Shown: positions 27,150 through 44,069 of the stretch, in pieces
Layout: every line of letters starts with the position of its first letter
Numbering within the stretch: the stretch's first letter is position 1
Origin: Gammaproteobacteria bacterium
GTDB lineage: Bacteria > Pseudomonadota > Gammaproteobacteria > Methylococcales > Methylomonadaceae
Reading direction: 5' to 3'
Length of the DNA: 46,007 nt
Assembly (NCBI GenBank): GCA_018830325.1
Contig: JAHJSQ010000063.1
Location: 1-46,007 of the forward strand
Translations under genes and position numbers: made by a program
The notes under the pieces: generated by a model
What the model was told of the DNA's origin: nothing
Database searches by the model: none
Seen by the model: only the letters and a program-made list of their open reading frames with translations

Positions 27150-28052
27150 ATGCAAGGACTAGAAATATTCGCCGATTCGCCGGCTGCACTAATGGCTTTA
27201 ACCGGTGTTATCGGTCTCATGGTCGGTAGTTTCCTTAACGTCGTTATTTACCGTTTGCCGATTATGATGCAAAAAAGTTGGCGCCGCGAGTGCATCGATT
27301 ATCTACAGTCCACTGGGGATGTGCAGTGCGCGGAGCACGGTATAGGAAGTGTAGAGGCCGACTCGAAATTTAATCTAATCTTTCCATTGTCGCGTTGTCC
27401 GCACTGCGAAACTCCGATAAAGCCTTATCAAAATATTCCCGTACTCAGTTTTTTGTTGTTGAAAGGCCGTTGCGCTCAATGCAATGCGCCGATATCGAAA
27501 CGTTATCCCGTTATCGAGGGATTAACCGGTTTTTTTTCGGTTTTAATCGCCTGGCATTTCGGTTATTCGGTAGAGGCGCTATTCGCGCTCGTACTCACTT
27601 GGTCCTTGATTGCGCTGAGTGCGATCGATATTGACCATCAACTTTTGCCGGATTCGATTACGTTACCTCTACTTTGGTTGGGTTTGTTCTTAAGTCTTTT
27701 CGATATCTTCATCGATACTCATTCCTCGATTATCGGTGCTATCGCCGGTTATTTATCGCTTTGGACGGTTTATCATGGTTTCAAGCTGTTGACCGGCAAA
27801 GAGGGCATGGGATACGGCGACTTTAAGCTGTTGGCAATGTTTGGGGCATGGTTGGGTTGGCAATATATCCTGCCGATCATTTTGCTGTCATCCTTGGTCG
27901 GTGCCGTTACCGGCATCGCGATGGTTATTTTGGTAAAGCGCGACAAGAATATTCCAATTCCATTCGGCCCTTATTTGGCAGCGGCCGGGTGGATCGCTTT
28001 ACTGTGGGGCGATAAAATCAATCAGGCTTATCTCAATTTTGCCGGATTATAA
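27150..28052 (+). CDS. pilD: Prepilin peptidase PilD
   Basis: A 300-residue aspartyl membrane protease and N-methylase that cleaves the leader of type IV pilins and pseudopilins. Four Cys of the cytoplasmic zinc site: CPHC near residues 83-86 and CAQC near 108-111. Catalytic Asp positions: DIDHQLLPD (about 160) and GYGDFKLLA (about 225). About seven membrane helices. Its likely substrates include pilins encoded elsewhere and possibly the pseudopilin at 315-1379. Confidence 0.96.
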   Translation: MQGLEIFADSPAALMALTGVIGLMVGSFLNVVIYRLPIMMQKSWRRECIDYLQSTGDVQCAEHGIGSVEADSKFNLIFPLSRCPHCETPIKPYQNIPVLSFLLLKGRCAQCNAPISKRYPVIEGLTGFFSVLIAWHFGYSVEALFALVLTWSLIALSAIDIDHQLLPDSITLPLLWLGLFLSLFDIFIDTHSSIIGAIAGYLSLWTVYHGFKLLTGKEGMGYGDFKLLAMFGAWLGWQYILPIILLSSLVGAVTGIAMVILVKRDKNIPIPFGPYLAAAGWIALLWGDKINQAYLNFAGL

Positions 28053-28056
28053 AGCC

Positions 28057-28662
28057 ATGTTGAAAATCGGCCTGACCGGCGGTATCGGTTCCGGTAAAAC
28101 CACCATCGCGGATTTATTCTCCGAGCTGAACGTTCCGGTAATCGATGCCGACGATATTGCCCGCGAAGTCGTCGAACCAGGTAGTCAGGCTTTGGAACAA
28201 ATTCGTCACGCGTTCGGCGAACGGGTGATTGCTGCCGACGGCAACCTCGATAGAAGCGCAATGCGTGAATTGGTTTTTGCCGATACCGAACAAAAACGTA
28301 AACTGGAAGCGATTGTGCATCCGATGGTACGGCAAAGTATATTGAAGCGAGTGGCATCGCTTGACGCATCTTACTGCATCATTTGCATTCCCTTGTTGGT
28401 TGAAAGCGGTATGGTCAATTTAGTCGACAGAGTTTTGGTAGTCGACTGTCCTGTTGAAACCCAAATCGAGCGCGTAACAAAGAGAGATTGTCTCGACGAA
28501 AAAATTGTTCGAGCGATTATTGATTCTCAAGCCACACGCGAACAGCGAAAAGCTCTGGCCAACGATCTTATCGACAATGCCACGTCCGATTCCATGCTTG
28601 CAGAACAAGTTAAAAAACTGCACAATTTGTATCTTTACTTAAGCATACGGCAGGATTTTTAA
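28057..28662 (+). CDS. coaE: Dephospho-CoA kinase CoaE
   Basis: A 201-residue kinase for the last step of coenzyme A synthesis. P-loop GLTGGIGSGKTT (residues 5-16), then PVIDADDIAREVV and VVDCPVETQIERV. I chose ATG 28057, 4 bp after the pilD stop, since it starts directly at MLKIGLTGG. It shares the pathway with panB, panC and panD in this window. Confidence 0.95.
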   Translation: MLKIGLTGGIGSGKTTIADLFSELNVPVIDADDIAREVVEPGSQALEQIRHAFGERVIAADGNLDRSAMRELVFADTEQKRKLEAIVHPMVRQSILKRVASLDASYCIICIPLLVESGMVNLVDRVLVVDCPVETQIERVTKRDCLDEKIVRAIIDSQATREQRKALANDLIDNATSDSMLAEQVKKLHNLYLYLSIRQDF

Positions 28663-28665
28663 TCA

Positions 28666-29436
28666 GTGAATTCCCCTATAGTCTACGAATTTCCACTCAA
28701 TGAGCGAATCCGAATTTTAATACGGCTCGAGTTGCTTTTTAAACAACTGGGACATTTTTTAGAAGGGAGCACCATGGCTGATAGGCGGGCGGCAATCAAT
28801 ACCTTGCTCGATATTCTGACGATTTTTAGTCGTAACGATCTCAAGTCGGAAATTCTTAAAGAACTTGAACGTCATATCAAGGTGTTGAATCAACTGGCCG
28901 GTAGCGAGGGAGTCAATGCCGAAAAAGTCAATGAAATCCTCGACGAACTTAACCAAACCAGTCATAACCTCTACGCCGCTAGCGGAAAGATCGGTTTGAA
29001 AGTGATGGGAAACGATTTGTTTCAAAGTATCTCGCAGCGAAGCTCGATACCGGGCGGAACTTGCTCGTTCGATTTACCTGCTTTTCATTATTGGCTGGAA
29101 CAAGATGAGACTGTTCAGCAACAAGCCTTAGAGCAATGGACTAAGCCGTTTAAGGATATTCGTAAAGCGATCGATATGATTCTAGGGTTTATTAGGCAAA
29201 GTAGTACGCCGACCGAAGAAGAAGCGGAAGCAGGGTTTTATCAGTCCTCGCTTGATAAAAGTCTTCCGCTGCAATTGCTCAGAATCAGTGTTGACCGAAG
29301 CATCCCTTGTTTTGCCGAAATTAGCGGCGGCAAGCACCGTTTCACGATACGCTTCATGCGTCCTGCGCCCGACGGTTCCAGGCCCACTCAAAGCCAGGAG
29401 AACGTTCCTTTTATGTTGACCTGCTGTCAATTTTAA
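28666..29436 (+). CDS. zapD: Cell-division protein ZapD
   Basis: A 256-residue FtsZ-bundling protein. Family blocks: [19 protein letters not shown] near the start, [23 protein letters not shown], and RFTIRFM near the end. Start is GTG, 3 bp after coaE. The order pilD-coaE-zapD-yacG is widespread in gammaproteobacteria. Confidence 0.94.
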
Positions 29437-29642
29437 TGAACGGTAATGAAAAAACGTTGGTAGTTAAATGTCCGCAGTGCGGGGGCTCCGTTCCATGGAC
29501 TGCGCAGCAGCTATTTAAGCCATTTTGCAGCGAGCGCTGCAAAATGATCGATTTGGGCGAATGGGCGGCCGAGGAGAAAAGAATTCCCGGAGATCCCGCG
29601 ATCGACGACGAGTTCTACCCGGACGATACGATATTTCATTAG
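29436..29642 (+). CDS. yacG: DNA gyrase inhibitor YacG
   Basis: A 68-residue zinc-finger protein. Zinc ligands are in [12 protein letters not shown] and [15 protein letters not shown], the four-Cys YacG signature. YacG binds GyrB and inhibits gyrase. Its ATG overlaps the zapD stop (TAATG). The acidic tail ends [11 protein letters not shown]. Confidence 0.94.
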
Positions 29643-29804: not shown

Positions 29805-30156
29805 TCGCCCCGGCAAATGAAAATTCTCTGGTGGCGGAGGGGGCGATAACTCGCCCGACAGGACGCCGTGAACCCAGCACCTAAATCCAGCACCTAAATT
29901 CCATAGGTCTTTGGCAATGATTCAAAATCATGGCTTATTTAGGTGCTGGGTGAATACGTCCGTGTAGGCTCGACGGCGGCTATCAGATTGCCAGGGATGG
30001 CATGAATGTAGATTTTGCATGGAGCAAGAATCTGCCCTGCCGCCGACACCTGTCAGTCGAGTAACCGCACTCTCTCCAGAACCGGCATTTGCTCTGTCGA
30101 GCGCCGTATATCGAAAAATTAGATAAAGAGTCTAAATCTACGAACTTTCACAGTAA
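29805..30156. repeat. MITE-like element with a second element nested in it
   Basis: Left end CGGCAAATGAAAATTC near 29811-29826, right end GAACTTTCACAGTAA at 30142-30156. Core features shared with other copies: CTCGCCCGACAGGACGCCGTGAA, a GACGGCGGC/GCCGCCGAC stem and CACCTGTCAGTCGAG. The core is interrupted by a 78 bp insertion (29873-29950). Together with the preceding element it fills the yacG to zinc-ribbon gap (29643-30147). Confidence 0.75.
29873..29950. mobile_element. 78 bp miniature element nested in a repeat
   Basis: Perfect 14 bp inverted ends, CCCAGCACCTAAAT and ATTTAGGTGCTGGG. Flanked on both sides by TGAA (29869-29872 and 29951-29954); removing the element and one TGAA restores the GACGCCGTGAATACGTCC core of the host repeat. 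An extra direct copy of the left end, CCAGCACCTAAAT, follows at 29888. Confidence 0.85.
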
Positions 30157-30570
30157 ATGCCAACGACTAAAAGGTTCGGAATGGTTTGTCGAGCGGGCAG
30201 ACAAATGATCGATAAATTCCTGGAAGCGGCTTAGCGCTTCATTATTACCCTGTAAGACATGCAAGTTCGAGACTGTTCGGCGCACGCTCGGCCAATCTTG
30301 CCGTGCTAGAGAGTCATAGAGCGCGCTGTATTGGTGGCGAATCAGAAATTCCCGAAAAATTCGGGCTTCAGGCGTTTGTCGATAGCTTAAAGAGCGATTG
30401 ACGGCATGTGCTGCGATTGTCGCGTGGCCTGCCTCAAGCGTTTGTAGCGATAAGGCCAGCCATTGCTTGGCGAGTTGTTCGCAGCGCAGGGCGCGGCTCA
30501 AGTCGGCCCCGCAACGCGGGCAAAGGAGCGCGTCGCTTAGTCGCGCATTACAGCAAGGGCAGCGTTTCAT
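30148..30570 (-). CDS. Zinc-ribbon protein at the end of the Hsp70 operon
   Basis: A 140-residue protein: N-terminal zinc ribbon with CPCC (residues 4-7) and CPRC (17-20), then a helical region (LAKQWLALSLQTLEAGHATIAAHAVNRSL) resembling TPR-type helices. Function unknown. Its ATG overlaps the Hsp70 stop codon (TAATG), so it is translated with that gene. The last two codons and the stop (30148-30156) lie in the GAACTTTCACAGTAA end of the adjacent repeat, so the original C-terminus may have been different. Confidence 0.75.
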   Translation of the reverse strand: MKRCPCCNARLSDALLCPRCGADLSRALRCEQLAKQWLALSLQTLEAGHATIAAHAVNRSLSYRQTPEARIFREFLIRHQYSALYDSLARQDWPSVRRTVSNLHVLQGNNEALSRFQEFIDHLSARSTNHSEPFSRWHLL

Positions 30571-32324
30571 TACGATTCGAGATAATAAATGATGTCGTTC
30601 AATTGTTCGACAGGCTCTTGTAAGGCGCCCTCATCGCCGGCTTCGATACAGTCTGTGATAGTTTCGATCAAATTGACCATGTCTTCCTTGTCTTCATCGG
30701 AGACCGTGTCGAATAAGGCTTCGGCTTTTTTGATTAGCTGACGAGCCTCGGCGACGGCTTTGCTTTGTGAAACCGCATCGCTTGTTTCAATCTCGTCCGA
30801 GCTAGAATCCATTTGTCCGAATAGGCTATCGATGCGCCGTTTCGCGCCGGCTAGTTCTTCGGTCTCGAAGCGTGAAATCGCATTGTTGATCGTGATCGAC
30901 TTTTCGAGGCCGGTTGCTTTTTCCTTGGCAGAAACATGCAGCATCCCGTTTAAATCCAGGGCTAATGTCAGCGTGATGATATTGCCGGCCGGTACGTCCT
31001 GGAGATCTTCGACGGTAAATTCGCCGATTTCGATGTTGTTCAGCGCATCCGGGTCTTCGCCTTGATAAATTCTAACGTTGACCGATTCTTGTCCGTCTTG
31101 AAAGGTCATGAATGCCTCTGATTTTCGCGTCGGCAATACGCTGTTCTTATGGATGATCGGTACAAATTGGTAGGGATAGGGTTCGCCGTCCAAAAAACCG
31201 AGTGCGCTGGTGCCGTAGGTATAAGGCGTGACGTCGACCAAGACCGTATCGATGGCTTGGCCGGCTATCATCGCGGCTTGCGTGGCCGCCCCCATGGCCA
31301 CGCATAAATCCGGGTCGACTTCGCTGTGCGGCTCGAAGCCGAATTCTTCGAATAAGCGCTCGCGAATGCATGGTGTTCGTGTCGAGCCGCCGACCAAGAT
31401 AATTTCGTCGATGTCGGAAACCGTCAATTTCGCGCCTTTGAGTGCGATATGCAGGGCATCCATCGTCGCGTTGATGTAATCTTCGATCATGTCTTCATAA
31501 TCGCCGCGCGACAATTCCAGGGTCAGATGGATAGGTGAGCCTTCGTGTTCGAGCAGGTATTCCTCTTCGATCTGCGCAAAAGGTTCGTCGGACAATACCA
31601 GCTTGGCGTTTTCGGCCGCGCGCGTGATGCGCGCCAACGCCTTACTATGCTCGGAAATATTAATGCCGTGCTGTTCCTTGATATGGTCTTGAATATGATT
31701 GACGATTTGTTGGTCGAAGTCGTCGCCGCCGAGATGGTTGTCGCCATGGCTCGATAAGACTTCGACGACGCCGGCTTGGACATTGACGACAGAAACGTCG
31801 AAGGTGCCGCCGCCCAAATCATATACCAACATGCGTTTGGCTTCGTCTCGGCCGGCACCGTAAACCAGCGCGGCAGCGGTCGGTTCATTGATCATCCGCA
31901 CCACTTCCAGACCTGCGATTTCGCCGGCTTCGCGCGTCGCTTGGCGTTGCGCGTCCGAAAAATAAGCCGGAACGGTAATAACGGCTTTGCTTATCGATTG
32001 GCCGACATGCTTCTCGGCTATCGCTTTTAGGCGCTTCAAGATGATTGCCGAAATTTCTTGCGGAGTGTAATCAAGGCCGGCCATGATGATGTGGGTATCC
32101 TGTCCCATCAAACGCTTGATCGATTTGACGGTGCGTTCCGGGTAAATCAAGTATTGGTTGCGGGCGGTTTCGCCGACGAGTATTTCGCCGTTGTCATCAA
32201 TACCGACTACGGACGGTAATATTTTTTTGCCGTCGTCGGTAATGATATGCACCTTGCCGTTTTCGACAATGGCGACTTCGGAGTTAGTCGTTCCGAGGTC
32301 GATTCCGATAATGATTTCATTCAT
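30570..32324 (-). CDS. Hsp70-family chaperone, not housekeeping DnaK
   Basis: A 584-residue Hsp70. ATPase landmarks: GIDLGTTNS at the start, [49 protein letters not shown] and [11 protein letters not shown] substrate-binding domain follows ([24 protein letters not shown] linker region onward), with a short helical lid and an acidic tail ending IIYYLES; it lacks the EEVD/EEVK-type end of DnaK and is about 50 residues shorter. The gene follows GrpE-like and J-like genes in one operon. The HscC or DnaK2 class is the nearest guess. Confidence 0.88.
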
Positions 32325-32341
32325 AGTGTTTTTGTCTAATG

Positions 32342-32992
32342 TTAGAGTTTATTGACTTTGACTTCGGCCAGTCTCAGTATTTGGTCTTCAAATAGAAAAC
32401 CCTTGCGGAGTTCCTCGAGCACGATACCGTTTTCCAGTTTCGGGTCATGGCCGACTTCGAGCGTCTTCATCGTATGGGCATCGAAAGGCTTGCCGACGCA
32501 GTCGATCGAAAAAACATTTCGTCGCTGCAACAACTGTTCGAAGCGTTTTAGCGTGATTTCCTGGCCCTTGGCGAAACCGTTGATAAAACGTACGTCTTGT
32601 TTTTTCGAATGATTGAACAAGGCATCGACCGGGCGGTAATTTTGCAGTACTCGAAAGCCTTCGCTGAGTCGGTCGTAAATATCGATAATGTCGAGCAGCA
32701 GCGTGCGCTGAGACTCTCTTACTTGTTGCTTAAGGCGCTCGGCCGACGCGGCCAGCTCGTCCGCTAATACTTGATTATCGGTTTTGAGAGCGGACACGGC
32801 TTCGGTCAGTGTGTCGAGCGTTGCCTTGAATTGCCGGGACTCGGCTTTGACTTCGCTTTTCAAGCCGGCTAGATCGGTAAATAAAACCGTCAAATCCGGT
32901 TGATTGACCGCCGCCAAATGCGCAAAATCGGTTTGTTCCAAATAATGCTGTAAGGTATCAAGCAATTCAGTTGGAGGTGTTTCGGTGTTCAT
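32342..32992 (-). CDS. GrpE-like nucleotide exchange factor
   Basis: A 216-residue protein: coiled coil (residues about 40-105), then a GrpE-type four-helix and beta domain ending KGFLFEDQILRLAEVKVNK, which resembles the GrpE C-terminus (...GY...R.LR.A.V.V). GrpE accelerates ADP release from Hsp70. It overlaps the J-like gene by 4 bp (ATGA) and precedes the Hsp70 by 17 bp. The internal segment with FDAHTMKTLEVGHDP also fits GrpE (FDP..HEA). Confidence 0.8.
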   Translation of the reverse strand: MNTETPPTELLDTLQHYLEQTDFAHLAAVNQPDLTVLFTDLAGLKSEVKAESRQFKATLDTLTEAVSALKTDNQVLADELAASAERLKQQVRESQRTLLLDIIDIYDRLSEGFRVLQNYRPVDALFNHSKKQDVRFINGFAKGQEITLKRFEQLLQRRNVFSIDCVGKPFDAHTMKTLEVGHDPKLENGIVLEELRKGFLFEDQILRLAEVKVNKL

Positions 32993-33327
32993 GATGACTT
33001 GTTTTTAATGTCGCCCATAACGGCTTTGTCGATTGAGACGGCATTCAGTAATCTGAAGAAGTCGTCAGGATGCATGGGCTGGATTTCGGATTCTTGTTTG
33101 AAAGCGTGATCCAGCAAGGCATTGAAGCCGGTTTCCGGGAAATGAAATAATTCGAAATTAATGCGGCTGTCGCTGTCTTTGATCGTTTCATAGGCGTGTT
33201 GAATTTGCTGAAAGCGTTCTTGATCGCGATCGGGCGGGTTTTCCTTGACCAAGTTTAAATAAGCTTGCTTGATCTCGGTATCGTTGGCATGTTCGGAAAC
33301 GCAGAGAATTTGATAGGGTGTCGTCAT
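32989..33327 (-). CDS. J-domain-like co-chaperone with PPD in place of HPD
   Basis: A 112-residue protein. The first 60 residues follow the J-domain pattern (PYQILCVSEHANDTEIKQAYLNLVKE, then FQQIQHAYETIKDSDSRINFEL), but the invariant HPD tripeptide that stimulates Hsp70 ATPase reads PPD in NPPDRD (codons CCG CCC GAT). The remainder is a short unknown tail. It is coupled to the GrpE-like gene and sits 5 bp from the TPR gene. Loss of His would normally abolish ATPase stimulation, so its mode of action may differ. Confidence 0.8.
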   Translation of the reverse strand: MTTPYQILCVSEHANDTEIKQAYLNLVKENPPDRDQERFQQIQHAYETIKDSDSRINFELFHFPETGFNALLDHAFKQESEIQPMHPDDFFRLLNAVSIDKAVMGDIKNKSS

Positions 33328-33332
33328 GTCGG

Positions 33333-35849
33333 TTAGTAGGGGTCAAACGGGAAAGAAAACGGTTCGTCGTCAAGGAAAAATTCGATGATTTCATCGAAAC
33401 TTAGGTCGATATCGATACGCAAGGATTGAGCGGCTTCCAGCATCATGATCGCCACTAGAAAGCTCTGATCCATGAGTAATTCGACGAGTTTGTTCGGGTC
33501 GATTCTTCCGGCGTATTTCGTCATCACATCCATCATGAGCTGTTCCGACGATGATTTATTCATCATTTCTTCAAACTTTTTGCCGATTTTGATCATATTC
33601 CGCTTCGGCACATGATCGAACAAATCCTCGATAATTTCGGGGTCGAATCCGCTTTCGTCTTCGTCAAAACGGTCTTCGTAAAAGTCGTCTTCACTGTCGA
33701 AGCCGAATGGATTATGAAAGCCGATGGAGCGTTCAATAAAGCGTCTAATCTTGAATTCGGTCTTACTGTCTTTTTGTTCATGAGCAATTTCGATCGCGTT
33801 TTGCAATCTTAGTGTCCAGGTAATATCGAGGCGGCTCGGATCGCCCTGGCATTCCGCAACGACTCGGTAATACGACCAGATCGGTTTTTCCCAGACGCCA
33901 TCGGCCGATTTCGCGCATTGTTTTAATAAATCGAAATGTTCGATCTCTTCGAGCGTTTGGCACCAAGCTAGGAGCGCCTGTTCGCCGTAATTGAGCAATT
34001 TCATCGATTTTTTGAGCGGCGCTTTGATTTTATCGAGCGCTTTGAACAATACGTCGAGCTTTTCGAGTTGTTCGCCGTAGCGCTCGACCGATTCTGTCAA
34101 GTGCAGTAGTTCCGGTTCGGATAGTTCGTAAGCTTTGACGGCCGGCAATTGTTTTGCGATGGGGGCGTAGGGGGCATCCATCAAGTCCGACTCGATATAG
34201 CCTTGGAAGTGGGCGGTTGCAGGCCCCAGATTCATTGATTGTAGAATATCGGCTATGGATTTGAGACCGCGGTCCTTATCTTCGGCTGCCCAAATATAAA
34301 ATCCGCGAATTAAGTCCGCTTGCCTCAGTAGAGTCTTATCGATCGATAATTGTTCGGCGGCTTGGAGCTCTTTGTCGACTAGATGGAATTTTTGGGTTTT
34401 AATCAATTTGCGGGCATGCGCTAAGTGACTTGAAAACAACAAGTCTTTGGCCAACGTATTGACCGGGTCGATTTTCAACAAGTCTTGTGCGTATTTGGCG
34501 GCCTTCTTGAAGGCTTTTTTGCGCATGGCGGACTTGGCGGCGCAAACCAGCATCTCGATGTCTTTCGGAAGGTGTTCCAGTCCTTTTGCCAGCCATATCG
34601 CATGCTCTTCCGGATTCGGGTCTTCCTGTTCGAAATAATCCAATATTTTTAAATAGCTGTCTCGGTCGTTCGGGTCGTATTGCAAGCTATCCATGAGAAA
34701 TTCGACAGCCAGGCTGGGCGGAAGCTTTTGAGCCAAATGTCTGTATATCAAGGCGATTTTTTTATGGTTTTCCGGTCCTTGGGTTTTTAATGCGTCAATG
34801 TAACGCAACCAGTGACCTTCGGCTTCATCGTGGTCATTGTTTTCTTCGTGGATTAAGGCCTGAATACGCTCGCTTTCGATCGAATCTTTCGCGGCGAAGT
34901 TTTTTAGATAGTCTTTACGTCCGGAGGGGTAGCGTGCCAGCATGGCTTGGCAAAAGCGGCTCGCCGCTTCGTTTCCGACCAGTTCGCGGTAGCGGATGGT
35001 TAAATTGAATTGCGCTTTGTCGGTCAGATTGTTGCGTTGCTTGTTTATAGCGTCGAGCAATTCAAGCTGCTTATTCGATAGACCTTTGGCCTTGGCGATC
35101 AGCCGGCGTGGGCTATCTTCGAGTTGCAGTGAAGCCTCAACGAAGGCCGATCCTTGAAGCATATACGCGGTCAAAGCATTCGCCGCCGGACGATAGGGCG
35201 AGTTATCCGGAATTTTCGACAATAAGGTGCGCGCTTGATCCATCGACGCCGGAAGGGATAGTTGCGATTTCAGTAAGGACCGAAGGTCACGGAAGGCGGA
35301 ACGGAAAGGTAGCTTTTTCAGTAATTCGTCAATATGTTCGAGCCGGTTGCTCCGGTAAGCCTCGAGAGCGTCGCGAACCGTTTGCCAATGTAGCATTACA
35401 GCCGAGTCATGCGGTATATGCGCTTCAATATCGGGATATTCGCAAACCAATAAAAACCCCAACCAGACTGCAAGATCGGGATGGTTTTTATCCAGTTGTT
35501 CGGCATCGATTCGATCGATTCTTGCGAAAGCTTTCTCTGTGTTTTTAACCGACAACAGCCATAAAATATAAGCTTCTAAAGCGGCTAGGGGCGGCTCTGC
35601 CCATTCCGAATAATTTTCCCACAATACGGCGGCTTCCTTCGGCATGCCTTTTTCCGCCATATTCAATGCTCTTTGCAAATAACACTCGGCTAGCTTTCGG
35701 CGCCAATCCGGATTATCGGAGTGTTTTAGCAATTGTTTATAGATTTCGGCGGCGTTTTTATATCGCCCTGCCGAAAAGTGCGAGGAGGCGTTTTTTTCTA
35801 GACTAGCGTCGGGTGGTGCGGAAGGGACTTTTTGCGGAGCTTTCTTCAT
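33333..35849 (-). CDS. Large TPR-rich protein of the Hsp70 operon
   Basis: An 838-residue soluble helical protein with degenerate TPR-like units. Examples: HFSAGRYKNAAEIYKQLLKHSDNPDWRRKLAECYL near residues 23-57, MPKEAAVLWENYSEW, AFKKAAKYAQDLLKIDPVNTLAKDLL, and PNDRDSYLKILDYFEQEDP. The C-terminal third is less repetitive, with acidic stretches (about 715-735 and the end, LDDEPFSFPFDPY). No signal peptide or membrane segment. It is the first gene of the operon and probably an adaptor or client-binding partner of the chaperone. Family not recognised. No good promoter or ribosome site seen. Confidence 0.7.
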   Translation of the reverse strand: MKKAPQKVPSAPPDASLEKNASSHFSAGRYKNAAEIYKQLLKHSDNPDWRRKLAECYLQRALNMAEKGMPKEAAVLWENYSEWAEPPLAALEAYILWLLSVKNTEKAFARIDRIDAEQLDKNHPDLAVWLGFLLVCEYPDIEAHIPHDSAVMLHWQTVRDALEAYRSNRLEHIDELLKKLPFRSAFRDLRSLLKSQLSLPASMDQARTLLSKIPDNSPYRPAANALTAYMLQGSAFVEASLQLEDSPRRLIAKAKGLSNKQLELLDAINKQRNNLTDKAQFNLTIRYRELVGNEAASRFCQAMLARYPSGRKDYLKNFAAKDSIESERIQALIHEENNDHDEAEGHWLRYIDALKTQGPENHKKIALIYRHLAQKLPPSLAVEFLMDSLQYDPNDRDSYLKILDYFEQEDPNPEEHAIWLAKGLEHLPKDIEMLVCAAKSAMRKKAFKKAAKYAQDLLKIDPVNTLAKDLLFSSHLAHARKLIKTQKFHLVDKELQAAEQLSIDKTLLRQADLIRGFYIWAAEDKDRGLKSIADILQSMNLGPATAHFQGYIESDLMDAPYAPIAKQLPAVKAYELSEPELLHLTESVERYGEQLEKLDVLFKALDKIKAPLKKSMKLLNYGEQALLAWCQTLEEIEHFDLLKQCAKSADGVWEKPIWSYYRVVAECQGDPSRLDITWTLRLQNAIEIAHEQKDSKTEFKIRRFIERSIGFHNPFGFDSEDDFYEDRFDEDESGFDPEIIEDLFDHVPKRNMIKIGKKFEEMMNKSSSEQLMMDVMTKYAGRIDPNKLVELLMDQSFLVAIMMLEAAQSLRIDIDLSFDEIIEFFLDDEPFSFPFDPY

Positions 35850-36048: not shown

Positions 36049-36744
36049 TCAAATACCAATCGATTTCAATTCGGTATAAGCCTGTTTTAGCCAAGTTTTG
36101 ACGCGTTGCCTTTCCAGTAAGCCCAATGCATTAGGATTGTCGACGGTCTTGTTTTGAGCCGCCCAAAAACTCGAGCTGTTTGCATCGACTTTGGTCATGA
36201 CCGGTGTATGCAGGCGTTTTAAGGTCATCAATTTGGCATTTAAACCCAATGCTCGTTCTTTGATGCCTGATTGTTCCAAAATAGTAAAATCCCCATCCCG
36301 AAGTTGATTCAGAACCAAGACGTAATTTAATTTCGCATCGTATTGATCCAGAAGTTTCCCTAGCAGGTCGACGCAATCCTTTCCCGAGTCCATGACATTC
36401 CAATATTGAATGGTAACGCCCAGTTCTTCGGCCAATTCGAGCACTCCGGATTCCTCGAGCCATTTAGACAAGGGATAGTGCGTTTGCGCGGCAAGATCGA
36501 CGAGTATTTGCTGTTCCGGGTTTTCTGCCGCTGTTTCGATGATTTTATCGAGGCTTTCATAGTTGTCTACGATAGTGGGCGACGCATAGTCGGCATAAAA
36601 ACGCAGCAAAGAACCGTGTGAGCGATCGGTATCGAAACCGATGAACGGGATTTCATGGTCGATCATATACTGCGCCAGTAATCGGGCAACGACGGATTTA
36701 CCGACGCCGCCTTTTTCTCCGCCGATTAGATGTATGGTACTCAT
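36049..36744 (-). CDS. ParA/VirC1-like P-loop ATPase
   Basis: A 231-residue protein with the deviant Walker A motif GGEKGGVGKSVVARLLAQY at residues 7-25, FIGFDTDRSHGSLLRFY (Walker A' / switch I region) and ILVDLAAQTHYPL (Walker B/switch II). This class includes plasmid-partition-type and VirC1-type ATPases. I chose the ATG at 36744, with AAAGGA 6-8 bp upstream, rather than a frame extension. It lies 44 bp downstream of the transglutaminase gene and may belong to that operon. Its partner and cargo are unknown; no parB-like gene is present. Confidence 0.8.
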   Translation of the reverse strand: MSTIHLIGGEKGGVGKSVVARLLAQYMIDHEIPFIGFDTDRSHGSLLRFYADYASPTIVDNYESLDKIIETAAENPEQQILVDLAAQTHYPLSKWLEESGVLELAEELGVTIQYWNVMDSGKDCVDLLGKLLDQYDAKLNYVLVLNQLRDGDFTILEQSGIKERALGLNAKLMTLKRLHTPVMTKVDANSSSFWAAQNKTVDNPNALGLLERQRVKTWLKQAYTELKSIGI

Positions 36745-36788: not shown

Positions 36789-37712
36789 TTAACTTTCTAG
36801 CCTCAGTACGTCGACAGAAACCGACAGACTGTGTTTGCCGCCGCCGAATGCAATGCCCTTCAGCGGAGTGACATCGGCATAGTCGCGTCCCCACGCTAAG
36901 GTGATATGTTGATCGGCAGGGAGTTTGTTATTGGTGGGGTCCAATTCCAGCCAGCCGCTGCCCGGCACGAATACGGCAAACCAAGCATGCGATGCGTCGG
37001 CGCCGACCAATCTTTCGGTTCCCGGTGCCGGCAAAGTTTCGATGTAGCCGCTGATATAGCGGGCCGCCAAACCGAGCGATCTCAAACAGCCGATCGCCAG
37101 ATGCGCAAAATCTTGGCAGACGCCGCGTCGATGCCGCATGACATCGGCCAGCGGCGTTGCAATCGTCGTGAAGGACGGATCGTAAGTAAAGTCTTGATAA
37201 ATGCGCTTCATTAAGTCGGTCACCGCATCAATCAGCGAAGCTCCGGGCGCGAAAGAAGGCCGGGCATAGTCGCCTAACTCGATTCCGGATGTCACCATGG
37301 GCGAGTCGAGCGTGTATTGTCTGGCTTCGAGTAGCGCTTCATAAGAACCGTACCCTAATGTTTGTTGACTCTGTACTTGCTGGGCCGGATTGTTGGACAA
37401 TTTGTCCCTGGCGTCTTCCCAGCTTATTGGGTTGTCTTGAAAAACTTGATTGGATTCAGTCAGCACCTCAACATCGCTTACGGCAGTGACAGTCAATTGA
37501 GAGTGAGGTTTTTGAATCGCGAAGTAAGCGATTCGATTACCGAAAAAGTCGAGCCGTTCCTGAAAGTCCGAGGGCTCCGGGTTAATATCGAAACGGCTAG
37601 CTGAACATTGCTGCCTCGGAAAATCGCGCGGCTTTAATCGGGCTTCATTCTGACAGAGGCCGACCTCATGAGCGTAATGGTAAGTCGTGATGTGGGTGAT
37701 GCGATATTTCAC
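36789..37712 (-). CDS. Transglutaminase-like protein
   Basis: A 307-residue protein with the bacterial transglutaminase-like N-terminal domain (ITHITTYHYAHEVGLCQNEARLKPR) and a transglutaminase-like core. The catalytic triad is visible: Cys in GVCQDFAHLAIG (near residue 199), His in DASHAWFAVF (near 242) and Asp in LELDPTNNK (near 255). Such proteins are usually cysteine peptidases or amidases rather than true crosslinkers. Its ATG overlaps the stop of the ATP-grasp gene by 4 bp (ATGA). Confidence 0.9.
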   Translation of the reverse strand: MKYRITHITTYHYAHEVGLCQNEARLKPRDFPRQQCSASRFDINPEPSDFQERLDFFGNRIAYFAIQKPHSQLTVTAVSDVEVLTESNQVFQDNPISWEDARDKLSNNPAQQVQSQQTLGYGSYEALLEARQYTLDSPMVTSGIELGDYARPSFAPGASLIDAVTDLMKRIYQDFTYDPSFTTIATPLADVMRHRRGVCQDFAHLAIGCLRSLGLAARYISGYIETLPAPGTERLVGADASHAWFAVFVPGSGWLELDPTNNKLPADQHITLAWGRDYADVTPLKGIAFGGGKHSLSVSVDVLRLES

Positions 37713-40273
37713 AACTCATCCTCCAGTTGCGTCGGGTTCAATTGATGCGGCCCTTCGGCATGACTGAAATAGGCTTTTGCGATCATTTCCGAGGTGCGCC
37801 ACATTAATTTCGAGGTGTCCGCCAGCACTTCGTCGAGAGCCGAATAGATAACGCTGTCTTCTTTAGCTTTGCTTAACGCGGTAATGTCGATTAGGCGTAT
37901 TTTGGTAAACGCCTCGAGAACTAGCTTTTCCTCGGCACTAATGCGAACCTTGCCGCGCTCCCGAGGCAAAGCTTTGACATATTCGTAAAGTTGATTAAGC
38001 TGATAGACCAACGAACGAGGATGCGTTTGATCGAGCACCAGCAGCTCTAAAACCATCGGTAATTGTACGAACGACCGGTATCGTCTTTGATAGATGCTCA
38101 AGCTGTCGGTGGTTATCAATACTGCTTCCAATAATTGATATTGGGTGCTTTCCTCTTGTTTGATCACAACCGTGGCGCGTAGTAATGCAATTAATGACAA
38201 ACAGCGCTCGAGGCGGCGTCCGCCGTCCAGCATCAACCAACCGGCTTCGCGGGTCATACTTTCGCTGGTCAAACCGGTAAATGCGACGATCGCTGAAATC
38301 AAATCGTCTAATTTACTTTGTAGTGCACCGATCTCCAGCGGCTCATTAAAAGATCCTGCACGCCAGCAACGCCTAATATCGTCTATGCTGCGCCAAGTGT
38401 CCTGTGACCATAGATCGCGGATGCTAAAAGCAGACTGCGTAAAGGCATGAATGCTTGAAGGTATCGTACCGTGGCGCTCGGCATCTTTGATCAATGCCGT
38501 TAGTTCGGGTAAAGGATTCGTTAATAATGACGGATCGCCTTTTACAAAACCCGGGTAGGTCACCGTGACATGGGTCAATGCGCGCAATAAAGTTTTGAGG
38601 CAATCGGCATCGCTGTATTCGATGTAATCCTGAGCTTCTCGCCATTTTTGCAGCACGGTTCGAAGCAATCTCGCGGCGGATTCGATACGTTCCAGATTGC
38701 GCCCGACCCAGTACAGATTATCTGCGGCTCGGCTCGGCAAGGGCTCGTTGATCGCCTCGACGATATGATCTCGGCGCGGTTGCAGCCAGATACTGACTTG
38801 TTGATCCGGTTGGTCCGCCAGCACCCAGGTGTCTTTGCTGATGCCGCCTGCCTGGTTCGAGACGACCAAATTATCTTTGAGGGGCGAAACCCGCGTCAAG
38901 CCGCCGGGCATTGCTTGATAACCATCTTCACCGGCGACGACGAAATTACGCAGAATCGCATTGCGTGGAGCGATTTGCCCATCTACGAAAGCCGGTACTG
39001 TTGAAAAACCGACCTGTTCCTGACCGACATACAAATAAGGTTTCGCCAAAATCGCGGCGCGTAATCGACTTTTTTCCTGGGAGCTCAAGTTGGCGCCGAA
39101 TACTGCGTGAATACCGGAGGTTCGGTCGATTTGCTTAATCACCAAGCGACCGAGATTTTCCAGTACGAAATTACATTCCCTACGTTGTCCGCACCACCAA
39201 GTGGCCACCGACGGCAATAGTAATTCTTGTCCTAACAAATGGCGCGACAGTCTGGGTAAAAAAGCCAATAGAGCATTGTTTTCCAAAACGCTGCTGCCTA
39301 AGGGGTTGGCTACCGCGACATTACCGCGCCTGACCGCTTCCAATAGCCCGGCGACGCCCAAGCGCGAAATGGACTTTAATTCCAAGGGATCGCAAAATGA
39401 ATCGTCGACACGCCGTAAAATGACGTCCACTTGTTGCAGTCCTTGCACCGATTTCAGCCAAACCTTCCCATCCCGAACGGTCAAATCGTCGCCTTGAACC
39501 AGCGTGTAACCGAGCTGCGATGATAAATAGGCATGCTCGAAATATGTTTCGTTGAAGGGGCCCGGCGTCAGCACGACGATTCTCGAATCGGTCCTCGAAC
39601 TCGGCGAACGGTTTGCCAATCCGGTTCGAAGCGCGCGGAAAAAGCCGGCGAGACGATGAACCTGCGATTCGCCGAACAAATCAGGCAGTACGCGCGTCAT
39701 CACCGACCGGTTTTCTAACGCGTAGCCGGCTCCCGAAGGCGCCTGAGTACGGTCGTCCAGTACCCACATGCGTCCATCAGGCCCGCGCGCAAGGTTGGCG
39801 GAATACAAGAATAATTGTCGCTCGGTATCGGGCAAAGTGCCGACGCAGGGTCTTAGGAAACCTTCATGACCGTAAACCAATTCGACCGGTAACAAGCCTT
39901 TTTTCAGTAGGCTTTGCTCGCCGTAAATGTCTTTCAATATTAGGTTGAACAATTCGGCGCGTTGTATCAAGCCGGCCTCGATCACGGCCCATTCTTCACT
40001 GCTGATCAACAGCGGAATCGGGTCGAGCTTCCATGGTCGGCTTAGGCTTTGTGCGTCGGTATAAACGTTATAGGTTACGCCGTTTTCACGCAGTAAACGC
40101 TGGGCTTCGCGGCGGCGGTGCTCCAATTCGTCACGGCCGATTTGCTCGATCGATTTCATGAAATGTTCCCAATAAGGCAGTACCTTGCCTTTATTGGCAT
40201 ACATTTCATCGTAGCCGGTCAGTTGCGTGGCGTAGTGCTGAGCACCGATTTCTTTTGCGAGAACGCTATTCAT
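37709..40273 (-). CDS. Circularly permuted ATP-grasp / alpha-E fusion protein
   Basis: An 854-residue fusion of a circularly permuted ATP-grasp type 2 domain (residues about 80-480; DGRMWVLDDRTQAPSGAGYALENR and FCDPLELKS are typical) with an alpha-E helical domain (from about 510; LPSRAADNLYWVGRNLERIES onward). Predicted to form an amide or peptide bond using ATP, with the alpha-E part a likely partner domain. In many genomes the two domains are separate genes beside a transglutaminase, as here. Substrate unknown. It is followed by the transglutaminase gene with a 4 bp overlap. Confidence 0.88.
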   Translation of the reverse strand: MNSVLAKEIGAQHYATQLTGYDEMYANKGKVLPYWEHFMKSIEQIGRDELEHRRREAQRLLRENGVTYNVYTDAQSLSRPWKLDPIPLLISSEEWAVIEAGLIQRAELFNLILKDIYGEQSLLKKGLLPVELVYGHEGFLRPCVGTLPDTERQLFLYSANLARGPDGRMWVLDDRTQAPSGAGYALENRSVMTRVLPDLFGESQVHRLAGFFRALRTGLANRSPSSRTDSRIVVLTPGPFNETYFEHAYLSSQLGYTLVQGDDLTVRDGKVWLKSVQGLQQVDVILRRVDDSFCDPLELKSISRLGVAGLLEAVRRGNVAVANPLGSSVLENNALLAFLPRLSRHLLGQELLLPSVATWWCGQRRECNFVLENLGRLVIKQIDRTSGIHAVFGANLSSQEKSRLRAAILAKPYLYVGQEQVGFSTVPAFVDGQIAPRNAILRNFVVAGEDGYQAMPGGLTRVSPLKDNLVVSNQAGGISKDTWVLADQPDQQVSIWLQPRRDHIVEAINEPLPSRAADNLYWVGRNLERIESAARLLRTVLQKWREAQDYIEYSDADCLKTLLRALTHVTVTYPGFVKGDPSLLTNPLPELTALIKDAERHGTIPSSIHAFTQSAFSIRDLWSQDTWRSIDDIRRCWRAGSFNEPLEIGALQSKLDDLISAIVAFTGLTSESMTREAGWLMLDGGRRLERCLSLIALLRATVVIKQEESTQYQLLEAVLITTDSLSIYQRRYRSFVQLPMVLELLVLDQTHPRSLVYQLNQLYEYVKALPRERGKVRISAEEKLVLEAFTKIRLIDITALSKAKEDSVIYSALDEVLADTSKLMWRTSEMIAKAYFSHAEGPHQLNPTQLEDEL

Positions 40274-40350
40274 AGGCTAATTCGATCGAGTCGGGTCACA
40301 AAGGCTCCGTTAGGGTATCCTGGAAAAAATTATTTCACCATATCGTTCAT

Positions 40351-40568
40351 GAAGGTCTAGCCATCGTCTCGGCAAATGAAAGTTCTCTGGTGGGGAGGGT
40401 GCGGTCACTCGCCCGACAGGACGCCGTGAATACGTCCATGTAGGCTCGACGGCGGCTCCCTGCCGCCGACGCCTGTCGATCGAGCAACCGCCCCCTCTTC
40501 GGAACCGGCATTGTGTTGAATATCGAAAAACTAGATTAAGATTTCAAATCCGCGAACTTTCACAGTAA
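40351..40568. repeat. MITE-like element between DUF2126 and ATP-grasp genes
   Basis: Ends CGGCAAATGAAAGTTC (about 40370-40385) and GAACTTTCACAGTAA (40554-40568) with inverted TGAAAGTTC. Inside: CTCGCCCGACAGG, GGACGCCGTGAATACGTCC, and a GACGGCGGC/GCCGCCGAC stem. It is the uninterrupted counterpart of the element at 29805-30156. No coding content in the gap 40274-40685. Confidence 0.8.
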
Positions 40569-40685
40569 GATCATGAAGCGACATGAAAAATTACACTGTT
40601 GATCTTATAGTCTTTTTCTTCATTGTCTTCATGAGCTTCATGGTGAATATTGCTTTGTTCTTGAACGCATCCAACACTCGCCATC

Positions 40686-43600
40686 CTAATATCGCCGCCT
40701 CAAATCGAGCGTGTACGGATATTCTTTATTAGGCTCCTCGGGCGGCGGGGCCATAGGCCTTGGCGGGTTCTTATGCGGTATGAAACTGATCCCGCTATTG
40801 GACGGCAAAATGACCGGTGGTCTTTCGATCTCGCCAGGCGTATGGCCGTAATTCCAAAAACGGGTAATCCTTCTGGCCTCGGCCTCATAAGCATTGACCG
40901 GAAAAGTCTCGTAACTGCGGCCGCCCGGGTGGGCGACATAATAAGTACAGCCGCCGACCGCGCGCCCGTTCCAAGTGTCGATGATATCGAATACCAAGGG
41001 TGTATGCGGGCCGATGGTCGGATGCAACGCCGAGGGCGGTTGCCATGCCCGGTAGCGGATTCCGGCAACGAATTCATCCTTGCGTCCGGTATTTCTGAGT
41101 GGCACATGTCGTCCGTTACAGGCCAACACATAACGCGAATCGGTCAATCCGGTCACCTTTACTTGCAATCGTTCGACCGAAGAATCGACGAAGCGTGCCG
41201 TGCCGGTATTGCTGACTTCCTCGCCTAGAACATGCCAGGGTTCAATCGCAAAACGCAATTCCAGATCGACGCCATCGACGATTGTGTTGCCGTAATGTGG
41301 AAAACGGAATTCGAAGAAGGGGTCGAACCAGTCCAATTGAAACGGGTAGCCGGCGCGTTGCAAATCGTCGACGACTTGGCGCATGTCTTCTCTGACATAA
41401 TGCGGCAATAAAAAACGGTCGTGAAGTTCGGTGCCCCAGCGAACCAATTTATGCCGGTAAGGCTCGCGCCAAAACCAAGCGACCAGAGAGCGCAGCAATA
41501 AAGCTTGAACCAGCGCCATGCGCTCATGCGGCGGCATTTCGAAGGCGCGCAGTTCCAATATGCCGAGACGTCCGGAAGCGCTGTCCGGCGAATACAGTTT
41601 ATCGATACAAAACTCGCTTCGGTGTGTGTTGCCGGTAATATCGGTCAGCAAATGCCGCAGCAAGCGATCGATCAACCATGGCGAAGGCGCTTCGCCTTCA
41701 GGGATTTGTTGAAACGCGATCTCCAGTTCATAAAGTTTTTCATCACGGCCTTCGTCGACACGCGGCGCTTGGCTGGTCGGACCGATGAACATACCGGAGA
41801 ATAGATACGACAGCCCTGGATGATGCTGCCAATATGTGATCAGGCTGCGCAATATGTCGGGACGGCGCAGCAAAGGACTGTCGGCCGGCGTTTCGCCGCC
41901 GATCGTGATGTGATTGCCGCCGCCGGTGCCGGTATGGCGGCCGTCCAGCATGAATTTTTCGGTGCCCAAGCGGACTTGGCGCGCCTGATCGTACAGAATA
42001 TGCGTATTGTCGGCCAATTGCTTCCAGCTTCGGGATGGATGGATATTGACTTCGATAACGCCGGGGTCGGGCGTGACCATCAAGCGTTCGATGCGGTAAT
42101 CGCGCGGGGGCTCATAGCCCTCGAGTACGACAGGAATCGACAATTGGTCGGCGGTCGCTTCGATTGCCGCGATCAATTCCAGGTAATGCTCGAGCATCGT
42201 CAAAGGCGGCAGAAATACATGGACCCGTCCTTCGCGAGCTTCGACACAAATCGCGGTATGCGGCACTTCTATGAGATCGATGTCCTTGTCGTCGGCAGGC
42301 GGGCTTTGTTCGTGAATTTCCGGATGGATAGCGCCGATTTGTTCAAAATGGCTATAGCGCTGTGCGACTTCGCCGTAATAATCGCCCAATTCCGGGAGCG
42401 TCTCAAACAAACTGCGCTCATGGGTAATTTCGCGTTTTTCCGGCGCGATCCACGGCAAGCTATCGAGAGGCATGCGCAGACCCATTGGCGAATTACCCGG
42501 AATCAAAAACAACTGACCGCGTTTGAATGGCCATGGACCGCTTTGCCAGGATTGTTTGCTCCAACTCCATTTAACCGGTAGCGCGAAGCCGGCCGGTTGA
42601 TTCAAGCCGGTATCCAATAATTTAGCCAACGTTTTGCGTTCGGCCGGATCTTTTAAGCGATACTGCAACGGGTCGATATTAACCGGCAGCATCTCTTCTT
42701 GCCAAAGGTGATAAAAAACGTCTTCGTAGGCCGCGGAAATGTGTTTGCGCGTCAAACCCAAACGGCCGGTCAGGTGTTCGACGAATTGCCTGGCCTGGTC
42801 GGGCCCATGTCCGTAATCAATTTTGATATCGGCCAGTAATTCGGGGTTGCGCCAAATCGGCGTGCCGTCCTTGCGCCAAAAAATACCGTATTGCCAACGC
42901 GGCAAGGGTTCACCCGGATACCATTTGCCCTGGCCGTAATGCAACATCGCACCCGGCGCGAACACGTCGCGCAAACGCTTGGTCAAGGCCTGGGCGCGCT
43001 CGCGTTTATGCGGGCCGTCCGCACGAGTATTCCATTCGGCGCCTTCCATGTCGTCGATCGACACGAAGGTCGGCTCGCCGCCCATCGTCAAGCGCACGTC
43101 GTCTTGCTGCAATTGCGCGTCGACTTGTTGGCCGAGCGCATCGATAAAAGACCATTGCTCGTCGGTATAAGGCTTCGTGACACGCGGGTCTTCGTGTAGG
43201 CGCGTGACCGTATTGCTGAATTCGAATTCGACTTCGCACTTGTCGGTCGCGCCGGTGACCGGTGCCGCGCTGACTGGGTCGGGCGTGCAAGCTAGCGGAA
43301 TATGTCCTTCGCCGGCCAATAAGCCGGAGGTCGGGTCGAGGCCGATCCAACCCGCACCGGGAATATATACCTCGGCCCAGGCATGCAGATCGGTAAAATC
43401 GTGCTCGGGACCTGACGGGCCGTCGAGCGATTTCATGTCGGCGGTCAATTGCACCAGATAGCCGGAGACGAAGCGCGCGGCGAGTCCTAGATGCCTTAGA
43501 ATCTGCACCAATAGCCAACCCGAATCGCGGCACGAACCGTTGCGTTTTTCGAGCGTTTGTTCGGGCGTTTGAATGCCGGGTTCCATGCGAATGTTATAGC

Positions 43601-44069
43601 TGACATCCTTGAAGACCTGGCGATTTAAATCGACCAAAAAATCGTTGATGTTACGCGGCGTCAAATCAAAATCGGCCACCCATTGGGTTAATAAAGGGCC
43701 GTCTTCGGTCACTTCCAAAAAAGGTGTTAGTTCCCGGGCTAATTGTTTGTCGTATTGAAAAGGAAATTTTTGCGCATATTCCTCGACAAAAAAATCGAAT
43801 GGGTTGATTACCGTCATGTCGGCAATCACTTCCACTTCGACTTTGAGAGACCGCGTTTTTTTCGGAAACACGACCCTGGCCAAAATATTTCCGAACGGGT
43901 CCTGCTGCCAATTTATGAAATGATCTTCGGGTTCGATACGCAACGAATAACCCTTGATGGGAGTTCTCGAATGTACCGCCGGTCTCAGGCGAAACACATG
44001 GGGCGACAACGAGACGGCGCGGTCGAAGAGGTAGGTAGTTTTGTGACTGATGGCCACGCGAATTGTCAT
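40686..44069 (-). CDS. Large transglutaminase/DUF2126 protein
   Basis: An 1127-residue protein. N-terminal beta domain, then a transglutaminase-like core with Cys in NGSCRDSGWLL (near residue 186), His in DLHAWAEVYIPG (near 230) and Asp in GLDPTSG (near 242). The remainder, from about residue 300, is the DUF2126 region (LTMGGEPTFVSIDDM, RHTGTGGGNHITIGG), which has an amidoligase/ATP-grasp-linked distribution. I chose ATG 44069, with AGGA 8 bp upstream, over a start 50 codons earlier, since the protein then begins MTIRVAISHKTTYLF like its relatives. Together with the ATP-grasp/alpha-E and transglutaminase genes it forms the predicted peptide-modifying set. Confidence 0.9.
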   Translation of the reverse strand: MTIRVAISHKTTYLFDRAVSLSPHVFRLRPAVHSRTPIKGYSLRIEPEDHFINWQQDPFGNILARVVFPKKTRSLKVEVEVIADMTVINPFDFFVEEYAQKFPFQYDKQLARELTPFLEVTEDGPLLTQWVADFDLTPRNINDFLVDLNRQVFKDVSYNIRMEPGIQTPEQTLEKRNGSCRDSGWLLVQILRHLGLAARFVSGYLVQLTADMKSLDGPSGPEHDFTDLHAWAEVYIPGAGWIGLDPTSGLLAGEGHIPLACTPDPVSAAPVTGATDKCEVEFEFSNTVTRLHEDPRVTKPYTDEQWSFIDALGQQVDAQLQQDDVRLTMGGEPTFVSIDDMEGAEWNTRADGPHKRERAQALTKRLRDVFAPGAMLHYGQGKWYPGEPLPRWQYGIFWRKDGTPIWRNPELLADIKIDYGHGPDQARQFVEHLTGRLGLTRKHISAAYEDVFYHLWQEEMLPVNIDPLQYRLKDPAERKTLAKLLDTGLNQPAGFALPVKWSWSKQSWQSGPWPFKRGQLFLIPGNSPMGLRMPLDSLPWIAPEKREITHERSLFETLPELGDYYGEVAQRYSHFEQIGAIHPEIHEQSPPADDKDIDLIEVPHTAICVEAREGRVHVFLPPLTMLEHYLELIAAIEATADQLSIPVVLEGYEPPRDYRIERLMVTPDPGVIEVNIHPSRSWKQLADNTHILYDQARQVRLGTEKFMLDGRHTGTGGGNHITIGGETPADSPLLRRPDILRSLITYWQHHPGLSYLFSGMFIGPTSQAPRVDEGRDEKLYELEIAFQQIPEGEAPSPWLIDRLLRHLLTDITGNTHRSEFCIDKLYSPDSASGRLGILELRAFEMPPHERMALVQALLLRSLVAWFWREPYRHKLVRWGTELHDRFLLPHYVREDMRQVVDDLQRAGYPFQLDWFDPFFEFRFPHYGNTIVDGVDLELRFAIEPWHVLGEEVSNTGTARFVDSSVERLQVKVTGLTDSRYVLACNGRHVPLRNTGRKDEFVAGIRYRAWQPPSALHPTIGPHTPLVFDIIDTWNGRAVGGCTYYVAHPGGRSYETFPVNAYEAEARRITRFWNYGHTPGEIERPPVILPSNSGISFIPHKNPPRPMAPPPEEPNKEYPYTLDLRRRY

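Follow-up and report, generated by a model that had tools for sequence, protein, structure and literature searches.

According to a review published in 2021, prokaryotic Hsp70 proteins are of three kinds, DnaK, HscA and HscC (PMC8215388). Two related arrangements have been described: in Myxococcus, DnaK paralogs that have a GrpE of their own (PMC11019930), and in GTPase conflict systems, sets of Hsp70, GrpE and DnaJ or TPR proteins (PMC7159879). In this work, we describe a five-gene unit that encodes an Hsp70, a GrpE-like protein, a J-domain-like protein, a TPR protein and a zinc-ribbon protein, located on contig JAHJSQ010000063.1 (assembly GCA_018830325.1) of a gammaproteobacterium of the family Methylomonadaceae; the whole 46,007-nucleotide stretch of this contig that was analysed is called the window below. 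The unit probably specifies a dedicated, self-contained auxiliary Hsp70 machine that works beside DnaK, with its own GrpE, a type-IV-like J protein, and TPR and zinc-ribbon adaptors. Among the results listed in searches of the PMC literature, no title or abstract opening describes such a five-gene unit.

The five open reading frames (ORFs) lie on the minus strand at positions 30148-35849 and encode, in order, the TPR, J-like, GrpE-like, Hsp70 and zinc-ribbon proteins. The first two genes are 5 bp apart, and the third and fourth 17 bp; the second overlaps the third by 4 bp, and the fourth overlaps the fifth by 1 bp. The ORF coordinates thus bear out a preliminary description of this DNA, which had reported five same-strand genes that overlap or lie at most 17 bp apart. 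Gene 1 (33333-35849) encodes an 838-residue TPR solenoid protein, a proposed scaffold or client adaptor, which is recognised from its ORF, from TPR repeats below the Pfam cut-off and from an AlphaFold2 model. Gene 2 (32989-33327) encodes a 112-residue J-domain-like protein without HPD (Pfam DnaJ, E=5e-13), and gene 3 (32342-32992) a 216-residue GrpE-type nucleotide exchange factor (Pfam GrpE, E=6e-21, together with family-specific residues). Gene 4 (30570-32324) encodes a 584-residue Hsp70 that is characterised by its Pfam HSP70 match, a residue census and a tree as distinct from the DnaK of the same genome. In the 140-residue product of gene 5 (30148-30570), a cysteine alignment and a structural model indicate a zinc ribbon (C4, C7, C17, C20) and a TPR-like helical domain. 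Scores exceed the Pfam cut-offs for HSP70 (507 bits), GrpE (75 bits) and DnaJ (49.4 bits, cut-off 27.8), and the zinc-ribbon match of the 140-residue protein, like the TPR match of the 838-residue protein, stays below its cut-off. The "full chaperone set" of the preliminary description needs qualifying, because the J-like protein has no HPD motif. A promoter and terminator scan gave 11 promoter-like sites, compared with 8.2 expected, and was uninformative.

We fetched 110 loci, which correspond to 108 distinct ones (L144 repeats L062, and L146 repeats L273), and located the five genes in them by profile mapping. They comprise 64 loci from the 99 other genomes of the same order that have a TPR match at E<=1e-10; nine loci from the class, a tenth (L135) having been excluded for its weak 45-bit TPR match; 17 of the 21 J matches of at least 59 bits found in the phylum beyond the window's own genome, the other four being represented only by short loci; and 20 named loci picked by hand. 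The order TPR-J-GrpE-Hsp70-zinc ribbon on one strand was found in 87 of the loci (85 of the 108 distinct ones), that is, in 59/64 from the order, 6/9 from the class, 12/17 from the phylum and 10/20 of the named set. The gene-neighbourhood check that the preliminary description had suggested thus finds the five genes kept together. It had also raised the case that this Hsp70 is the only DnaK of the genome, which does not hold: a canonical DnaK that scores 887 bits on Pfam HSP70 is encoded on another contig. This separate DnaK and the joint conservation of the five genes across phyla support its suggestion of a specialised chaperone machine.

The short loci L232, L235 and L239 follow the five-gene order as far as the sequence reaches, and L244 contains only TPR and J genes. 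Nine of the 23 incomplete distinct loci are flagged as touching a contig or locus end. In L267 the TPR gene was undetected, yet the contig stops about 1.6 kb upstream; in L151 and L153 the zinc-ribbon protein is visible in the sequence with a score under the cut; and in L155, L163, L189 and L202 one or more parts were undetected. L092 and L093 have no adjoining Hsp70 and are not flagged at an end. These two loci, from two genomes of one genus, carry a short TPR gene with J and GrpE genes, and the genome of L092 has a solitary family-type Hsp70 elsewhere (L256), which lacks the C-terminal YYLES end described below.

When the window's TPR protein was used as query, 102 of 301 genomes of the order matched (100 of them at E<=1e-10), and no plasmid-borne copies were found with this query. 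The TPR profile matched 30 of 369 genomes of the class at 0.001; 11 of these scored above 190 bits, two being the window's genome and a congener. The J profile reached at least 59 bits in 21 of 299 genomes of the phylum, the window's own included, and the remaining J-profile matches among those listed score at most 56.3 bits and lie mostly in DnaJ-sized frames. The unit is present in a Bathymodiolus methanotroph symbiont, Magnetococcales, Thiomargarita, Paracraurococcus, a beta-proteobacterial metagenome-assembled genome (MAG) and a planctomycete MAG (L152). A Crenothrix locus reaches the contig end within the Hsp70 gene, and its TPR gene is split over two frames. Among the matches listed, relatives of the J, GrpE and Hsp70 proteins occur in further Planctomycetes, an Acidobacteria MAG and Viridilinea, with more divergent ones in two cyanobacteria. 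The distribution is patchy, and the spread over phyla, which comes from a contig scan with at least 592 matches of which 80 were kept, is no census. DnaK passes the equivalog cut-off in 13 of the 14 named carriers searched, and the remaining one (G952) has a partial match of 584 bits.

The flanks of the loci vary and no other family recurs in them convincingly, and we therefore take the unit as the five genes. Four flank clusters, judged by eye, occur in at least three genera: the widest (12 genera labels, 31 ORFs) resembles a signalling family of the PAS/GGDEF kind, and the other three are an ABC ATPase, apparent antisense frames and a SulP-like transporter. Across the loci, no convincing recurrent client gene was found in the flanks, and no candidate client adjoins the operon.

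The loss of the HPD histidine is the most surprising part of the unit, and it was overlooked by the preliminary description. None of 107 distinct J proteins (109 in all) has this histidine, the position being occupied by proline in 97 and by serine in 10; the J protein of L189 (PAH) was under the score cut and was left out of this count. The third residue of the motif is D or E in 100/107, and the commonest motifs are PPD (51) and PPE (40). In the window, PPD occupies codons 31-33 of gene 2 (33229-33237, minus strand, position taken from the translation) and aligns with HPD of E. coli DnaJ and with HPE of E. coli DjlB and DjlC. Compared with DnaJ, six residues are missing from the loop, which has the same length as in the two HPE proteins, DjlB and DjlC; the family J profile nevertheless gives DnaJ and DjlB similar scores, 41 and 40 bits. 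A J protein is encoded beside the Hsp70 in 99 of the 110 loci (97 of the 108 distinct ones). L268, L269 and L272 depart still further from HPD, with SK[T/A] as the J motif. Judged by its sequence, the J protein is type-IV-like, that is, it has a recognisable J-domain in which HPD is replaced non-conservatively. As described in a 2026 review (PMC13254874), HPN or QPD changes abolish the stimulation of ATPase activity and HPE is seemingly the only tolerated change; a designed J-domain analogue without HPD did stimulate, and the role of J proteins with a broken HPD is treated there as an open question.

For the residue census of the Hsp70, we compared 87 family proteins with 55 canonical DnaKs and with E. 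coli DnaK, HscA and HscC, using E. coli DnaK numbering. Hsp70s without the N-terminal GxDxGTT motif or with fewer than 480 residues after it were excluded, the 17 phylum loci are outside the census, and the 87 include one repeated contig pair (L062, L144). The canonical DnaKs are 54 proteins from the matches listed in the contig scan, plus the DnaK of the window's genome, and they are mostly from Firmicutes. The ATPase residues D8, G10, K70, E171, T199 and D201 are invariant (87/87). The Hsp70 contacts of HPD residues two and three are P419, R167 and Q378, and the backbone of L391 meets the histidine (PMC8215388); in the family, these are kept in 87/87, 85/87, 86/87 and 87/87, respectively. 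A GrpE-signature loop is present at 290-295, with H295 in 83/87; in the aligned E. coli HscA and HscC this loop is wholly or partly gapped.

The substrate-binding part of the Hsp70 is altered. In the cleft, L399 is replaced by Tyr or Phe in 79/87, I401 by Thr in 76/87 and E402 by Ser in 65/87. R467 and D540, which we take to be the lid latch pair, are replaced by Ala (76/87) and Arg (61/87), respectively, and the pair is, to judge from these residues, mostly lost. The tail has no residues past E. coli DnaK position 605 in 85/87, compared with a median of 37 in the 55 canonical DnaKs, which agrees with the absence of a DnaK-type tail noted in the preliminary description. In the window, the protein ends in IYYLES (30573-30590, minus strand), a conserved C-terminal end by its pattern across the family: a YYLES-like C-terminus occurs in 79/87 family Hsp70s and in 0/55 canonical DnaKs, and some of the eight exceptions look cut by contig ends. 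There is also a deletion in the nucleotide-binding domain about residues 76-101, where on average 2/25 positions are filled, as in HscC; since 54/55 of the sampled canonical DnaKs have the same deletion, it is not diagnostic of HscC.

The Hsp70 of the window shares 39% identity with the DnaK of its own genome. It scores 547.9 and 556.5 bits on the NCBIfam DnaK models TIGR02350 and NF001413, under their cut-offs of 822.55 and 648, and 427.9 bits on the HscA model TIGR01991, under the cut-off of 708.55. We built a tree of 71 rows, in which a single clade (99/98) holds 37 family members from Proteobacteria, Planctomycetes and Acidobacteria, with two cyanobacterial members attached to it at weaker support (93/72). 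A branch of 1.2 (100/100) sets apart the sampled DnaKs, together with HscA; the DnaK of the window's genome groups with that of E. coli. Further Hsp70-like genes were seen in passing: two lie adjacent to each other at G000:C29:5019-7608 (L004, L006), in open frames of 668 and 953 residues, and Hsp70-like matches in frames of about 914-979 residues recur in many of the 61 genomes of the bacterial family that were searched.

The GrpE proteins of the unit keep G122 in 101/103 and R186 in 103/103 (E. coli GrpE numbers), and they also have a signature of their own, for example Glu at M189 in 95/103. Such GrpE-specific fixed residues fit a dedicated GrpE-Hsp70 pair. As a side observation, E264 of the Hsp70 is replaced by Arg in 80/87, and this residue and the Glu at M189 of GrpE could form a charge pair in a private interface. 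For the TPR protein, AlphaFold2 predicts a long solenoid made up of 49 helices (mean pLDDT 84, pTM 0.48). Foldseek returned 164 matches below 0.001 for this model, and all of the best 50 of the 164 have a TM of at most 0.24, as generic solenoids; a Pfam search gave no match to an FNIII domain in the TPR protein. In the zinc-ribbon protein, the four cysteines are invariant in 13 aligned sequences, and the AlphaFold2 model has a short ribbon followed by five helices (mean pLDDT 91), for which Foldseek gave nothing below 0.001 and weak matches to TPR folds. The helical part had not been noticed in the preliminary description. Fusions of the zinc-ribbon protein to PD-(D/E)XK_3 (PF13366) occur in three loci: L087:13042-13995, L138:11380-12021 and L139:2901-3560. 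No family-specific solved structure was found with the profiles, which match Hsp70 chains, mostly designed or generic TPR chains, and generic J-domain chains.

In the mechanism that we propose for a dedicated Hsp70 machine, the TPR protein would hold the client and deliver it to the Hsp70, a role in which the zinc-ribbon protein may share. We infer that client selection lies in these two proteins because the J protein is close to a bare J-domain and the Hsp70 is tailless, and the TPR protein is accordingly named here as a candidate client adaptor. The J protein would dock at the usual site on the Hsp70 through the contacts of HPD residues two and three, and it should still be able to do so because the Hsp70 residues contacted by these two motif positions remain. 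Since the contact between the histidine and the interdomain linker is gone, stimulation may be weak, differently wired, or dependent on both client and scaffold; the J protein would trigger ATP hydrolysis weakly, or only in the presence of bound client and TPR scaffold. The cycle would then be reset by the unit's own GrpE. The altered cleft, the lost lid latch and the missing tail suggest a narrow client set. We also consider a bolder proposal, which in its entirety is rather improbable: the family would be a further bacterial Hsp70 class beside DnaK, HscA and HscC, its ATPase would be switched on by a histidine-independent J-domain, and the TPR scaffold would grip the YYLES-like end in a bacterial equivalent of the EEVD-TPR link of eukaryotes.

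Several observations count against the dedicated machine. The published effects of changes of the QPD or HPN type, which abolish stimulation (PMC13254874), imply that the J protein may be wholly unable to stimulate. On the Hsp70, the acidic J-contact E206 is Glu in only 4/87 and is mostly Asn or Ser. TPR and J genes occur without a detected adjoining GrpE or Hsp70 gene in L136, L264, L268, L269 and L272, and L131 has the TPR gene alone; none of these six loci is flagged at an end. The TPR and J proteins may therefore be able to act as a pair independently of this Hsp70. The tree places the Chloroflexi member beside the DnaKs without firm support (87/56), and because of this placement the family label is united in only 7% of 200 bootstrap trees. 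The tree also sampled few other bacterial Hsp70 paralogs, and HscA and HscC are long branches in it; the "further class" of Hsp70 is for these two reasons a proposal.

An explanation that overlaps with the favoured one in most other respects regards the J protein as a non-stimulating recruiter or brake, either like Pam16 or as a competitor of functional J proteins, while hydrolysis would be driven by HPD-bearing J proteins of the genome, or only by client and TPR scaffold. We take this possibility seriously while judging it unlikely. It accounts directly for the loss of the histidine in 107/107 distinct J proteins, and type IV proteins, of which Pam16 is an example, are described as presumably non-functional (PMC13254874). 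The genome has other J-domain matches, one in a 387-residue frame beside dnaK and one in a 325-residue frame, which may supply the stimulation if their motif is HPD. The kept J-docking residues of the Hsp70 (R167 85/87, Q378 86/87, P419 87/87) do not favour a mere recruiter, and the D or E at the third motif position in 100/107 is hard to explain by tethering alone. Another candidate role, in which the Hsp70 stands in for HscA in iron-sulphur cluster assembly, is hardly tenable. The genome has no HscA over the cut-off and the Hsp70 scores 428 bits on the HscA model, but none of the 61 searched genomes of the family, whether or not they carry the unit, has an HscA over the cut-off (the E. coli control passes); among them are G024, G028 and G094, which have no TPR match. 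The window's genome also has no HscB over the cut-off, and the HscA substitute was rejected on these grounds. In addition, the unit has a GrpE, whereas HscA is thought to be GrpE-independent (PMC8215388), and none of the four recurrent flank clusters resembles an isc gene.

The Hsp70 might also be a plain redundant duplicate of DnaK that serves dosage or stress and has no special adaptor, given that two or more DnaKs are reported in 6.4% of DnaK-bearing bacterial genomes (PMC11019930). The long separating branch, the identity of 39% to the genome's own DnaK, the fixed co-inheritance with four dedicated genes and the altered cleft and latch make such a duplicate very unlikely. We give similarly little credence to a conflict or defence module in which the Hsp70 is a threshold switch, as in GAP1-N2 GTPase systems, and consider it highly unlikely. 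Hsp70, GrpE, DnaJ or TPR proteins do occur near GAP1-N2 GTPases (Kaur 2020, PMC7159879), and the PD-(D/E)XK_3 fusion of the zinc-ribbon protein in three loci and the patchy distribution would suit a defence role. On the other hand, the flanks show no effector or GTPase family that recurs from genus to genus (no GAP1-N2 profile was run), the TPR protein has no FNIII match, and PADLOC gave one match only, WYL on the GrpE-like protein at E=0.007. Nothing found marks the unit as a defence system. The unit is a widespread natural set in which a J protein with a broken HPD is nearly always encoded next to an Hsp70, and which also includes an exchange factor of its own and likely adaptors. With these cognate partners, the question of whether a J-domain can work without its histidine becomes directly testable, and the unit may also be a bacterial case of TPR-Hsp70 coupling.

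Around the unit, the window's neighbours (ParA-like, transglutaminase, ZapD, YacG, CoaE and PilD) recur only in the same-genus loci L037-L040. Upstream of the TPR gene and on the same strand, a ParA/TraL-like ATPase is encoded at 36049-36744 (ORF to 36894, minus); it scores 54 bits on a conjugal-transfer TraL model with a cut-off of 360, and among 60 loci of the order it is present only in L037-L040. An apparent operon at 36789-44219 (minus) encodes a transglutaminase-like protein, a circularly permuted ATP-grasp plus alpha-E protein and a 1177-residue ORF that has, by eye, a transglutaminase-like start. On the other side, genes for ZapD and YacG at 27150-29642 (plus) are convergent with the five genes, and before them are ORFs that by eye encode a prepilin peptidase and CoaE.

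Among the known systems, the unit resembles DnaK-DnaJ-GrpE in all checked catalytic residues, in the GrpE-signature loop with a cognate GrpE, and in most J-docking residues. It differs in its 112-residue J protein, which has no HPD and no room for the further domains of DnaJ, in the tailless Hsp70 with I401T in the cleft and a changed lid latch, in the extra TPR and zinc-ribbon partners, and in its coexistence with DnaK. E. coli HscC with DjlB and DjlC is similar as a specialised extra Hsp70 with dedicated short-loop non-HPD J proteins (HPE there), and Sel1-repeat genes nearby are a further likeness. However, the unit has a GrpE loop and a GrpE-type gene, whereas HscC has no GrpE signature and is believed to work independently of GrpE (PMC8215388), and DjlB and DjlC keep the histidine and have 475 and 483 residues by coordinates, instead of the 112-residue PPD protein found here. 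HscA-HscB likewise includes a specialised second Hsp70, but the score of 428 bits against 708.55, the GrpE loop with an own GrpE, and the absence of an adjoining isc gene in the stretch of the window examined separate the unit from it. In GAP1-N2 systems a similar set of chaperone domains occurs in one neighbourhood (PMC7159879), whereas no GTPase or FNIII component was found here in the flanks and by Pfam, no GAP1-N2 profile having been run. MxDnaK2 of Myxococcus is likewise a second DnaK, and the gene immediately upstream of it encodes the GrpE-like MXAN_6672; the text describes a bicistronic operon and uses no TPR or zinc term (PMC11019930). Finally, the J protein is like the type IV proteins Pam16 and DnaJB13 in having a clear J-domain with a non-conservative replacement of HPD, according to the definition in PMC13254874, but unlike these, it is encoded next to its own Hsp70, and the place of the histidine is always taken by Pro or Ser.

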